Part shown: in pieces, positions 47,847 to 52,411 of the stretch
Position numbering within the stretch: the first letter of the stretch is position 1
How the letters are laid out: each line of letters opens with the position of its first letter
Assembly: GCF_020165495.1 (NCBI RefSeq)
Contig: NZ_JAIUIE010000012.1
Coordinates: forward strand, 62,001 to 126,000
From: Mesorhizobium sp. BR1-1-16
Lineage (GTDB): Bacteria > Pseudomonadota > Alphaproteobacteria > Rhizobiales > Kaistiaceae
Reading direction: 5' to 3'
DNA length: 64,000 nucleotides
Position numbers and translations under genes: made by a program
Notes under the pieces: generated by a model
Seen by the model: the letters and a program-made list of their open reading frames with translations, nothing else
The model's database searches: none
Told to the model about the DNA's origin: nothing

Positions 47847-49270
47847 CCGACATGACAGACGACGCGCTCACCGGGCTCGATGCACTCGGCATCGCCGATG
47901 AGATCCGCAAGGGTGCGTTGACGCCGCAAGAGGCGCTGGACGCCGCGATCGCACGTGTCGACGCGCTCAATCCGGCCCTCAACGCCGTCGTGCATCGGCA
48001 TGACGATCTAGCTCGGCGCGCGATCGCCGAGGGGCTGCCGGATGGCCCGTTTCGCGGCGTGCCGTTCCTCCTGAAGGATCTCGATCTCCGCCTTGCCGGA
48101 ACAGTCACGACCAGCGGCAGCCACCTGTTCGACGGCATCGTCGCAACGCGGGACTCGACGCTCACGGCCCGCTACAAGGCCGCGGGTCTCGTCATCTTCG
48201 GCAAGACGAACGCCGCCGAATTGGGTCTCTCATCGGCAACCGAGCCGGCCGCCTTCGGTCCGACACGCCATCCGCTCGATCCGGCGCTGTCGCCAGGCGG
48301 CTCGAGCGGCGGCAGCGCGGCGGCGGTCGCATCCGGCATGGTACCGATGGCCCATGCAACCGACGGCGCCGGCTCGATCCGCATGCCCGCTTCGCTGACC
48401 GGCATTTTCGGCATGAAGCCGAGCCGCGGCCGCACGCCCGTTGGCCCCGATGCCAGCGAGATCTTCTTTGGCATGTCGGTGAACCACGCCATCACCATGA
48501 CCGTCCGCGACAGCGCCGCTCTGCTCGACGCGACGAGCGGCCCGGAACCGGGAGCCCGGTACGGCCTCGCGGCCGATGATCTGTCCTTCCTGGAGCAATC
48601 CCGGCGTGACCCGGCGCCGCTGCGCATCGCGCTGATGACGGAGCCTTTTGGCGCCGAGCCGGTCGAGGGCACCTGCCGCGATGTCGCGATCGAGGCGGCC
48701 CATCTCGCCGCAGCGCTCGGCCATCATGTCGAGGAGGCGCGCCCTTCGCTGGATGGGATTGATCCGGCGCATTGCTTCCGCCGTCTCGCCGCCGCCCTCA
48801 CCCTCGTTTTCGTCGAAGACGTCGCGGCGCCGCACGGCATTGCGGACCCGCGCGCGCTGCTGGAGCCCGTCAATGTGGCCTGGATGGACGAGGCCAAAGG
48901 GCTGACGGCAGGCGACCAGATCCGCGCCATCGGCGAGATGCATGCCATCGGACGCGCGCTTGCCCGCTTTTTCGAGCGCTATGACGTGTTGATCACGCCG
49001 GTCACGGCGCAAAGCCGGTTGCCGCATGGCCATTTCAACGGCGCCGAAACGGATGTCACGCGCTTCGTCGATCGCCTGACGGCCTTCGGCCCCTTCACCT
49101 TCCCGTTCAATGCCGGGGGCATGCCGGCGATGAGCGTTCCCGTCACACGCGTGGGAGGACTGCCAGTCGGCGCCCAGTTCGCATCCGCTCTTGGCCGCGA
49201 CGGCACATTGTTCGCGCTCGCGGGGCAGATCGAACGCGCCCGGCCATGGCATCGGCTGACGCGCAACTGA
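47843..49270 (+). CDS. Amidase-signature family hydrolase
   Basis: A 475-residue amidase. The triad is Lys in FLLKDLD, cis-Ser in GGSSGGSAAAVASG, and Ser in ATDGAGSIRMPASLTG. It is coupled to the shorter amidase through an ATGA overlap. Two amidases of different subgroups in series suggest two C-N cleavages on one substrate or on successive intermediates. A third related amidase is encoded at 56341-57777. Confidence 0.88.
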   Translation: MTDMTDDALTGLDALGIADEIRKGALTPQEALDAAIARVDALNPALNAVVHRHDDLARRAIAEGLPDGPFRGVPFLLKDLDLRLAGTVTTSGSHLFDGIVATRDSTLTARYKAAGLVIFGKTNAAELGLSSATEPAAFGPTRHPLDPALSPGGSSGGSAAAVASGMVPMAHATDGAGSIRMPASLTGIFGMKPSRGRTPVGPDASEIFFGMSVNHAITMTVRDSAALLDATSGPEPGARYGLAADDLSFLEQSRRDPAPLRIALMTEPFGAEPVEGTCRDVAIEAAHLAAALGHHVEEARPSLDGIDPAHCFRRLAAALTLVFVEDVAAPHGIADPRALLEPVNVAWMDEAKGLTAGDQIRAIGEMHAIGRALARFFERYDVLITPVTAQSRLPHGHFNGAETDVTRFVDRLTAFGPFTFPFNAGGMPAMSVPVTRVGGLPVGAQFASALGRDGTLFALAGQIERARPWHRLTRN

Positions 49271-49300
49271 GGCCCGCGGTTTTTTCGGCCTGTGGATATC

Positions 49301-49334
49301 TTGACAGCGGGGATAAAGAGAACAAAATAAGAAC
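49301..49334 (+). promoter_or_regulatory. SOS promoter with alphaproteobacterial LexA box
   Basis: TTGACA (49301-49306) and AAAATA (49324-49329) form a promoter with a 17-bp spacer. GAAC-N7-GAAC (49320-49334) overlaps the -10 element. This direct-repeat motif (the complement of GTTC-N7-GTTC) is the known LexA target in alphaproteobacteria. The box lies 23 bp ahead of the ATG of a 93-residue gene, so that gene should be repressed by LexA and induced by DNA damage. Confidence 0.75.
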
Positions 49335-49356
49335 AGAACGACAGCAGAGGACGCCG

Positions 49357-49638
49357 ATGATGGAAACCGTCCGGGAAATGATCGCGCGGATCGACGCCGA
49401 CATGCAGGCCGCTGCGGGCTGGATCGAGATCGAGCGCCGTGAAGATGGCGCGCATCTGGCAAGCGGCGCGTTGCGCTGCCAGGCCGATGCGGTCGAATTC
49501 GACGATGACGCCGGCTTCACGACGCGCATCCCTTATGGGCAGGTCGTCGCCATCCGCTTTGGCCGCCAGGGCGAGACCATGCCGCTGGCGACGCTCGCCG
49601 CCCCCAGCAGCGTTGTGCCGCTGCGTGCCACAGGTTGA
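49357..49638 (+). CDS. Small SOS-controlled protein of unknown function
   Basis: A 93-residue protein of no family I can name. ATG at 49357 has a GAGG site six bases upstream; the longer open frame would run through the promoter. The N-terminus is helical and acidic (METVREMIARIDADMQAAAG). It is followed by a beta-type stretch (WIEIERR, TTRIPYGQVVAIRFGRQGE) and a hydrophobic tail ending LRATG. It is cytoplasmic by appearance, with no signal or membrane span. Its own SOS promoter and LexA box make it a candidate DNA-damage-response protein, transcribed apart from the amidase genes before it. Confidence 0.7.
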   Translation: MMETVREMIARIDADMQAAAGWIEIERREDGAHLASGALRCQADAVEFDDDAGFTTRIPYGQVVAIRFGRQGETMPLATLAAPSSVVPLRATG

Positions 49639-49795
49639 CGATCCCGCGCGCGCCTGCGCTACGACCGCTTTCCCCGGCCGGCGGTTGCTGTAGGATGGCT
49701 GGCAATCGCTCAGCCCGCTTTGTCCGGCGTCTGCCAAACCGCGCCGAGCAATCACATTGGTTGCGCGGCTCTGTCCGCCCCGGGAAAGGCTGAGA

Positions 49796-50143
49796 ATGCG
49801 GCTTCTGGTCTGCGAGGACGACTTCCTCATTCTCATGAACACAGCGGAGATGCTCCGCGACCTCGGGTATGAGGTCACGGAAGCGGCCGATGGGGCCGCC
49901 GCTCTGGCGGCCCTTGCAGCCGATCCGTTCGATGCCCTGATGACGGATGTCGGCCTGCCCGATATGAGCGGTATCGAACTCGCCCACCGTGTCCGCGCCA
50001 CCCTGCCGGGCCTGCCGATCATCTTTGCCTCCGGCCTCGGTGAGGTCGACGGCTTTGACGGCGATGCCACCGTCGCCTTCGTCCAGAAGCCCTATACGAC
50101 ACCGGCTCTCGAGGCCGCGCTCAGGGCCGTCATACCCACGTAA
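49796..50143 (+). CDS. Single-domain response regulator (CheY-like receiver)
   Basis: A 115-residue receiver domain with no output domain. The acidic pair is in VCEDDFL, the phospho-acceptor Asp in ALMTDVGLPDMSG (about residue 52), the Ser/Thr switch in IIFASG and the Lys in FVQKPY. ATG at 49796 begins at the first beta strand. Stand-alone receivers of this type relay signals between histidine kinases and partner proteins in alphaproteobacteria. No kinase gene is nearby. It converges on treZ with an 18-bp gap. Confidence 0.88.
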   Translation: MRLLVCEDDFLILMNTAEMLRDLGYEVTEAADGAAALAALAADPFDALMTDVGLPDMSGIELAHRVRATLPGLPIIFASGLGEVDGFDGDATVAFVQKPYTTPALEAALRAVIPT

Positions 50144-50161
50144 AGCGCGCTCAGGGCCGCT

Positions 50162-52129
50162 TCAGCCCTTCGCGGGCAGCACGCTGATAACCGCGGACCA
50201 GGGGCCGAGCACCATGCGTCCGCCCTCGCGCCGCTGCGTACCAGTCGTGGCGATCGGCTCGAACGGGGCGACGTCGATCGACCCCTCCTCGGGCGCCGCA
50301 TTCATCACCATGACGAGCGTCCCGCCACCATAATTCCAGGAAACGGCGATCACCCGGCCGTCCTGATGCGCTTCCGCCCCTTCATAAGGCGTCTCGGTCA
50401 GCGACCACAGATGCGCGCGGCGGAGGCGCCCAAGCTCGCGGAAACGCTCCAGGGCCTGCGATCGCTCTGTCGCCTCGAACTCATGCCAGTCGAGCTTCGC
50501 CATCGCCATGGTTTCGACAGCGACGGGATCGGGCACCAGTTCATCGGCGTGCTGCGATTCATAGAATTCCATCGCCTGCTGCGCCCGCCCTTCCCGGATT
50601 TCCTTGCTGAACTCGCCGTTGAGGTCGCCGAAGAACGGGAACGGCACCCGGATATGCGCCTCCTCACCCATGAAGAACATCGGGATCTGCGGCGACAGCA
50701 TGATCACGAAATGCAGGAAATCGAGGCGCTCCGCGTCGAGATCTTCCGCCAGCCGCCGCCCATCTGGCTGATTGCCGATCTGGTCATGGTTCTGGATGAA
50801 GGAAACGAAGGCAGAGGGCGGCAGATGCCCTGACGGTTCACCGCGCTCGACATCGCCGCGACGCGGCACCGGCTCACCCTGATAGGCGAATCCTTCCGCC
50901 AGCACCCGGCGCGCCTTTTCCACCGTCGCATCGGCAAAATCGCGGTAATAGCCGCTCCGCTGCTCGGTCGCGATCACATGCAGCACATGATGGATATCGT
51001 CGTTCCACTGCGCGTCGAAATGCCGGGGACGGCCCGCCTCGTCGCGCTCGAGCCAGGTCGCGCCGTTGTCGAGATTTTCGAGGATGAGCATCGCGTTCGG
51101 CTTGATGGCCCGTCCCATTGCCGCGAGCTCCCGCTTCATGAGATCGGCGCCGGATGTCGCGAATTCATGCACGGCATCGAAGCGAAGCCCGTCCATGTCA
51201 TAGTCCTCGAGCCACATGCGGACATTCTCAAGGAAGAACAGCCGCACGAGCGGATCGGCGAAGTTCAGTCCCGCGCCCCAGGGCGTCTGGACATTATTGT
51301 CGAAGAAGCGCTCGGCATAGATCGGAAGATAGTTATCGACCGGGCCGAAGTGGTTGTAGACGACGTCGAGAATGACGGCGAGCCCATGGGCATGGGCCGC
51401 GTCGACCAGCGCCCGCAATTCTTCAGGCGTGCCGTAGCTGCGCTCGGGCGCAAAGGGCAGCACGCCGTCATAACCCCAGTTATGGCAGCCAGGAAAATCG
51501 CCGATCGGCATCAGTTCGATCGCCGTATATCCGGCATCGGCGAAATGTCCAATCCGCCGGGCGAGACCCTCGAATGTGCCTTCGGGTGTCGCGGTGCCGA
51601 TATGCAGCTCGGCGATCACCGCCTCATGCCAGGGTCGCGCCGCGCGCTCGCTCGCCGGTCCAAGCGAACCCCGCACGACGCTCCAACCGCCGGTATCGTC
51701 CGACTGGCCGCGCGAGGCCGGATCAGGGACGTCAAAACCCTTGACGCGGAAACGATAGAGCGTACCCGGGCCGACGCCAGCGACATCGATTCTGTACCAG
51801 CCATCCGCATCGCCAGCCATCGCAAGCGGGGCGCGGTCGACCAGCAGCAGTTCCGCCTTGTCGGCGGAAGGGGCATAGAGGCGAAACCGAACGCCGTGTT
51901 CGATCAGTTCGGGGCCGAAACGATAATGCTGGATCCGGTCATAGGAGAGCGGGCCATGCTCATATTCCTCCGGGCCGGACCCGACGCGATCGCCGCGTGT
52001 CTTGTCGGCGATCGAAAGGCTGGACCGCAGGATCGTCGGATCGCCGGTGGGGGGCGCGCCTTCGACATGCGAGTCGATCAGGGCATGGCCGCCTTCCGGC
52101 TTGTCGTCGGTTCTGTCCTGCATCGTCAT
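50162..52129 (-). CDS. treZ: Malto-oligosyltrehalose trehalohydrolase
   Basis: A 655-residue GH13 enzyme that releases trehalose from maltooligosyl-trehalose. The catalytic residues are visible: nucleophile Asp in GLRFDAVHEFA, acid/base Glu in MLILENLDN, and Asp in FIQNHDQIGN, with the family phrase YNHFGPVDNYL. The N-terminal roughly 60 residues are an extension before the early beta domain (YRFGPELIEHGVRFRLYAP). ATG at 52129 has an AGGAG site seven bases ahead. It is the last gene of treY-DUF2934-treZ. The pathway makes the stress protectant trehalose from glycogen-type glucans. Confidence 0.93.
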   Translation of the reverse strand: MTMQDRTDDKPEGGHALIDSHVEGAPPTGDPTILRSSLSIADKTRGDRVGSGPEEYEHGPLSYDRIQHYRFGPELIEHGVRFRLYAPSADKAELLLVDRAPLAMAGDADGWYRIDVAGVGPGTLYRFRVKGFDVPDPASRGQSDDTGGWSVVRGSLGPASERAARPWHEAVIAELHIGTATPEGTFEGLARRIGHFADAGYTAIELMPIGDFPGCHNWGYDGVLPFAPERSYGTPEELRALVDAAHAHGLAVILDVVYNHFGPVDNYLPIYAERFFDNNVQTPWGAGLNFADPLVRLFFLENVRMWLEDYDMDGLRFDAVHEFATSGADLMKRELAAMGRAIKPNAMLILENLDNGATWLERDEAGRPRHFDAQWNDDIHHVLHVIATEQRSGYYRDFADATVEKARRVLAEGFAYQGEPVPRRGDVERGEPSGHLPPSAFVSFIQNHDQIGNQPDGRRLAEDLDAERLDFLHFVIMLSPQIPMFFMGEEAHIRVPFPFFGDLNGEFSKEIREGRAQQAMEFYESQHADELVPDPVAVETMAMAKLDWHEFEATERSQALERFRELGRLRRAHLWSLTETPYEGAEAHQDGRVIAVSWNYGGGTLVMVMNAAPEEGSIDVAPFEPIATTGTQRREGGRMVLGPWSAVISVLPAKG

Positions 52130-52155: not shown

Positions 52156-52344
52156 TCAGCTGGGAGCATCCGGCTCTTCAGTCGGGAGAGCTTTACCGAA
52201 ATCGCGCTCCGCCGAATGGCGGCGGCGCAGTTGCTCTACGGCACGGAACCAATGGTCATAGGCATTCGACCAAAGCGGTTGCCCCTCGGCCTCCCAGAGC
52301 AGGAAGGCTTCACGGCGGATTTCCTCGTCGCTGAATTCGGTCAT
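52156..52344 (-). CDS. DUF2934 family small protein within the trehalose operon
   Basis: A 62-residue protein with the DUF2934 core: EEIRREAFLLWEAEGQPLWSNAYDHWFRAVEQL. This predicted amphipathic helical motif is common in rhizobia, often beside glycogen and trehalose genes. Its function is unknown. It lies between treY (67 bp upstream) and treZ (26 bp downstream) on the same strand, so it is co-expressed with them and might adjust their activity. Confidence 0.85.
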   Translation of the reverse strand: MTEFSDEEIRREAFLLWEAEGQPLWSNAYDHWFRAVEQLRRRHSAERDFGKALPTEEPDAPS

Positions 52345-52411
52345 TTTTCACCCGCTACCCAGCTGAGTTCGCATGGCGTTCGAGAACGGCCATCGGCTGG
52401 TTGGGATCAAC

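Follow-up and report, generated by a model that had tools for sequence, protein, structure and literature searches.

The locus and its promoter

The 64-kb window analyzed here (64,000 nucleotides of the genome deposited as Mesorhizobium sp. BR1-1-16) carries a small gene, P0001, behind a promoter that is overlaid by a LexA-type (SOS) box. The genome (5.2 Mb in 29 contigs) we infer to belong to the genus Kaistia, order Hyphomicrobiales. The locus is made up of four features:

49301..49306, + strand: -35 hexamer TTGACA (from the sequence and a promoter scan)
49320..49334, + strand: LexA-type (SOS) box GAACAAAATAAGAAC, overlying the -10 hexamer (from the sequence and homologue comparison)
49324..49329, + strand: -10 hexamer AAAATA, 17 bp from the -35 hexamer (from the sequence)
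49357..49638, + strand: P0001, a soluble acidic protein of 93 amino acids (aa); ATG at 49357, stop codon ending at 49638

The original prediction for this DNA had described a near-ideal promoter (TTGACA, 17 bp, AAAATA) with GAAC-N7-GAAC over its -10 hexamer, and both are present, at 49301-49329 and 49320-49334 respectively. Its placing of the box before the start codon also stands, but the distance from the box to the ATG is 22 bp and not 23 bp. A promoter scan of 49200-50250 returned a single match (0.2 expected), at TTGACA 49301, which the scan couples with CAAAAT at a spacing of 16 bp. The claim that GAAC-N7-GAAC (GTTC-N7-GTTC on the other strand) is the LexA format of alphaproteobacteria agrees with the Caulobacter GTTCN7GTTC given in PMC12700426.

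Other genes of the same genome stand behind similar boxes. The lexA match (C13:36161-36862) carries a box of its own, GAACACATACAGAAC, ~50 bp upstream (C13:36097-36111), and recA is preceded by GAACAAAACATGTAC, one mismatch from the box pattern. Boxes are likewise found upstream of tag (Pfam match at E 2.6e-70), of a gene resembling ImuA (E 2.2e-08, under the curated cut-off), of two genes of a ~65-aa family described below (C1:215708 and C23:306615) and of a 32-aa peptide gene in front of dnaE, also described below. One gene (locus L015) was considered as dnaE2 and rejected, its first 422 residues fitting replicative DnaE better than the error-prone model (511 vs 214 bits). The P0001 gene resembles the alphaproteobacterial LexA regulon in the placing of its box over the promoter, yet lies outside the core named in PMC3323433 for alpha- and betaproteobacteria, i.e., lexA, recA, dinB and/or polB, uvrA and imuA-imuB-dnaE2.

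Conservation of the gene and its box

Homologues of P0001 were found in 6/28 genomes of the family, all of them Kaistia (6/14), with identities of 88% in Kaistia soli DSM 19436 (G023), 64% in a metagenome-assembled genome labelled Bosea sp. (G025) and 42% in Kaistia hirudinis DSM 25966 (G021). The nonsynonymous rate (dN) was below the synonymous rate (dS) in all six pairs of four sequences (for the window, dN/dS values of 0.07/0.79 against G023 and 0.29/0.89 against G019), therefore the P0001 reading frame is a real gene, which appears to be under purifying selection.

Absence of the box upstream of orthologues had been named beforehand as the outcome that would speak against LexA control; the box, in the form GAACAAAATA[A/G]GAAC, lies upstream of all six homologues. 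In two of them (G015 and G021) it lies in front of an operon leader gene, ~250 bp from the P0001 homologue. Among the four closest loci, the stretch CTGTGGATATCTTGACAG, the -35 hexamer and the box are identical, while the spacer and flanks vary.

In wider searches, against the genome contig collection, P0001 as a single-sequence query found none and its profile three. Across the order the profile matched 5/397 genomes, all Kaistia (the known carrier G021 is absent from these matches, seemingly outside the draw), and across the class 1/385, the window's own; distant relatives may be missed, because, in the rows listed, at most 13 first-look candidates were scored per genome. As to a phage origin, viral contigs yielded 108 pattern matches and no confirmed relative of P0001, and the best PHROGs match had an E-value of 0.016. 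Among open-licence PMC papers, we found nothing on the P0001 gene and nothing joining Kaistia with LexA.

Motif counts and controls

Could the box be a chance match, with the P0001 gene outside LexA control? The bare pattern GAAC-N7-GAAC occurs five times in the window vs 1.23 expected, a number that none of 100 shuffles reached. Genome-wide, the count is 125 vs 77 for the reversed pattern, which favors the chance explanation; a bare match is therefore weak evidence, and such counts, with the reversed pattern so near, were dropped as support. On the other hand, GAACAAAATAAGAAC has four G+C among its 15 bp vs 9-10 for the other four boxes of the window, none of which has TTGAC[AT] 13 bp upstream, and the combined pattern TTGAC[AT]-N13-GAAC-N7-GAAC occurs only once in the 64 kb. 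The AT-rich form GAACAAAATANGAAC has three sites in the window's genome (reversed control: none) and 29 sites over the 28 family genomes, spread over 15 of them, while the reversed pattern is missing from all 28. The sites divide into 25 in 13/14 Kaistia genomes and four in two genomes of another genus. In all 25 Kaistia cases the -35-to-box spacing is constant, with TTGACT (19 sites) or TTGACA (six sites) standing 13 bp upstream, and the gene downstream belongs either to the ~65-aa family (21) or to the P0001 family (four). The GAACAAAATANGAAC counts, this spacing and the conserved box at 6/6 homologues leave a chance match extremely improbable. Thus, from the box at every homologue and the stereotyped GAACAAAATANGAAC promoter with no reversed counterpart, the P0001 gene is very probably a LexA target.

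The four GAACAAAATANGAAC sites outside Kaistia include two (L066 and L067, in G008 and G010, of another genus of the family) where a box variant is tied to a mutagenesis cassette: the gene downstream of the L066 box is ImuA-like (E 1.5e-16, under the curated cut-off), and the ImuA-like gene behind the L067 box was judged by eye. The remaining two (L080 and L081) are without gene assignment.

GAACAN6GAAC was also tried as a search form and rejected (27 sites vs 17 reversed, many without a plausible close downstream gene start); two further sites, one just upstream of a glycosyltransferase-like gene (L010) and the other just upstream of a gene resembling EF-G (L025), were left out of the SOS gene count. 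A separate GAAC-N7-GAAC of the window, at 52367-52381 on the minus strand, is followed after 22 bp by a reading frame of 62 aa (52156-52344, minus strand); the box is probably a chance occurrence, since its spacer is G+C-rich and TTGAC[AT] is missing at 13 bp.

A second small-protein family behind the same promoter

The unnamed ~65-aa family (motif GDARAxIETLL ... SFGYVRGR) has the promoter and box in common with P0001, and in G015 and G021 its gene comes first in the operon, followed by the P0001 homologue. The two proteins are otherwise unlike: there is no visible sequence likeness between them, and the ~65-aa protein is predicted to form a helical hairpin (mean predicted local distance difference test, pLDDT, 76.8).

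On the Kaistia side the family comprises loci L013, L026, L068-L077, L079, L082-L084, L086 and L088-L091. Its hidden Markov model (HMM) was trained on 20 Kaistia members, whose own matches to it are thus a given. Profile A2 of the family matched 36/297 genomes of the order at E <= 0.01, mostly weakly outside Kaistia, and relatives with weak E-values occur in several families of the order. Among 24 non-Kaistia loci fetched, 22 match the HMM (range L042-L064; L059 and L065 were dropped); not all are independent, because some share one genus. A same-strand GAAC-N7-GAAC lies within 260 bases upstream of the GD motif in 11/22 of these loci, the reversed pattern in 0/22, and control windows of the same loci hold the box in 3/215. 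Counted on either strand the box is found at 15/22 loci, the controls covering the same strand only.

For the ~65-aa family, Pfam and NCBIfam showed nothing above cut-off. AAA_assoc_2 was touched by 10/31 members (best E 0.003), one member shown singly scoring 15.3 bits vs a cut-off of 34.3, and the structural model gave two PDB matches (best E 9.1). These matches hint weakly at a likeness to AAA+ lid domains.

Predicted properties of the P0001 protein

P0001 (pI 4.67) was originally described as belonging to no recognised family, which holds in that neither it nor three of its homologues have a Pfam or NCBIfam match above the curated cut-off. No membrane segment was found (best 19-aa Kyte-Doolittle mean 0.85). 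The AlphaFold model built from six sequences (mean pLDDT 86.9, predicted template modelling score 0.76) shows a helix at residues 5-19, six strands and a loose C-terminus, and weakly suggests a small Sm-like barrel plus helix. Residues W22, D50, D51, G53, Y60, R67 and G69-E73 (RxGRQGE at 67-73) are invariant in the six homologues.

Such a fold would fit an inhibitor or adaptor, either acting on Rho in the manner of Rof (YaeO) or serving a ring ATPase in the manner of SspB, with altered transcription termination or proteolysis during repair as the effect. The modelled N-terminal helix followed by six strands in a small, acidic protein is in keeping with this, as is a Foldseek search of PDB that places Hfq (3hfo; E 0.025, TMt 0.63), SspB (1yfn; E 0.042) and YaeO (6jie; E 0.16, TMt 0.59) within ranks 1-13. 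Against it, the same list also has unrelated folds, namely lipoproteins, amidotransferases and a chemotaxis inhibitor, with no entry reaching E 0.001; among viral models the best match (E 0.0055) is an uncharacterised protein. At the sequence level P0001 differs from all three: no Rof, Hfq or SspB match was found in Pfam (for Rof, neither in P0001 nor in three homologues), and the profile has no PDB sequence match up to E 10. According to PMC11018626, Rof is Sm-like, obstructs Rho mainly by its N-terminal helix and requires Y13 and D14. The P0001 homologues keep no such aromatic-acidic pair; compared by eye, with no structure alignment, position 13 of their helix is D in 4/6 and A in 2/6. Position 15, acidic (D/E) in 6/6, is a point in favor of the Rof-like reading. 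The LexA-type promoter of P0001 is a further difference from these proteins. Overall, a Rof-like or SspB-like role appears unlikely.

A cell-division inhibitor had been among the functions first proposed. Division inhibitors are usual among small damage-induced products, those named in PMC4211646 being SulA, the SOS-induced SidA and the SOS-independent DidA, and P0001 shares with SidA and DidA the small size and the link to damage. Both of these are, in the same paper, membrane proteins (Caulobacter SidA is an inner-membrane protein of 29 aa), unlike P0001. No SulA model was among the P0001 Pfam or NCBIfam matches up to E 10, scans in which the HMMER filters discard most weak matches. Moreover, a conserved hydrophobic 32-aa peptide encoded between a LexA box and dnaE in 11/14 Kaistia genomes is a better candidate. 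Among 15 loci fetched, it was found at L105-L109, L111, L113-L115, L116 (G000:C1:659034) and L117 and was missing at L110, L118 and L119; L112 was left uncalled by the script, and G020 gave no match. The peptide is a candidate SidA-like division inhibitor; the Caulobacter sidA gene is presumably also near dnaE. Since P0001 has no membrane helix and a SidA-like peptide is found in 11/14 genomes, P0001 is a poor candidate, and the proposal that it is an inhibitor of the SidA, DidA or SulA sort did not hold up; we regard it as very unlikely.

Neighbouring features

Two further features flank the gene and its promoter:

49291..49299, + strand: DnaA-box-like TGTGGATAT, directly upstream of the -35 hexamer, one base off the consensus
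49796..50143, + strand: single-domain response regulator, downstream of P0001 (PF00072, E 5.4e-18)

The label of TGTGGATAT follows what we take to be the DnaA-box consensus; the sequence has a single copy in the window and is identical in the four closest (stand-alone) P0001 loci. Upstream of P0001 is an amidase-like gene (assigned by eye). The response regulator has matches in 6/14 Kaistia genomes at E 1e-20 and in 4/14 below E 1e-40; these four are the genomes where the P0001 gene stands alone, and the remaining matches fall in reading frames of 995-1060 aa. The plus strand of 49200-50250 showed no terminator-like site, and co-transcription of P0001 with the response regulator is possible. 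The description of P0001 as a stand-alone gene is borne out at this locus.

Probable SOS control and a possible role in damage tolerance

We propose that P0001 is an SOS-regulated protein of the Kaistia regulon that acts as a protein-binding modulator, a statement led by its regulatory part and to which we give a probability of roughly 0.8. Membership of the P0001 gene in the Kaistia SOS regulon as a stand-alone gene is, taken by itself, highly probable from the sequence comparisons, and the SOS/LexA control originally predicted is thus very probably correct, given the box format, the promoter overlap and the conservation at 6/6 homologues. The modulator part, drawn from the structural model and the shared operon, is tentative.

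Several observations weigh against the proposal: i) 8/14 Kaistia genomes are without a homologue visible to the search, so that members of the genus can do without the gene; ii) the bare box pattern is common genome-wide, as counted above; iii) family scans of P0001 gave weak matches only (E 0.037 for Peptidase_S46 and 0.022 for AAC(2')-Id, neither anywhere near its cut-off; PHROGs E 0.016); iv) fold matches are also weak, with no PDB match by Foldseek at E <= 0.001.

The box, promoter and conservation come from the sequence, and the steps of LexA binding and induction from the known pathway. LexA bound to GAACAAAATAAGAAC would cover the -10 hexamer of a strong sigma-70-type promoter and keep the P0001 gene off; on DNA damage, RecA filaments would prompt LexA self-cleavage, and the gene would be turned on. 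P0001, presumably non-enzymatic, might then bind a protein partner via W22, D50-D51, G53, Y60 and the RxGRQGE segment and act in damage tolerance beside the ~65-aa SOS protein, a step suggested by the model and by the operon with the ~65-aa gene in two genomes. A bolder version, in which P0001 and the ~65-aa family form an undescribed damage-tolerance module of Hyphomicrobiales, put under LexA by a single strong, stereotyped promoter and with an Sm-fold protein that would block Rho or serve as adaptor of a ring ATPase once DNA is damaged, seems to us quite unlikely. The P0001 gene would be a new genus-restricted SOS gene and not a new kind of system.

SOS genes outside the core are little known. 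Here one stereotyped promoter flags two unnamed families of small proteins, one of them apparently order-wide in alphaproteobacteria, and both families are direct targets for tests of damage phenotype.
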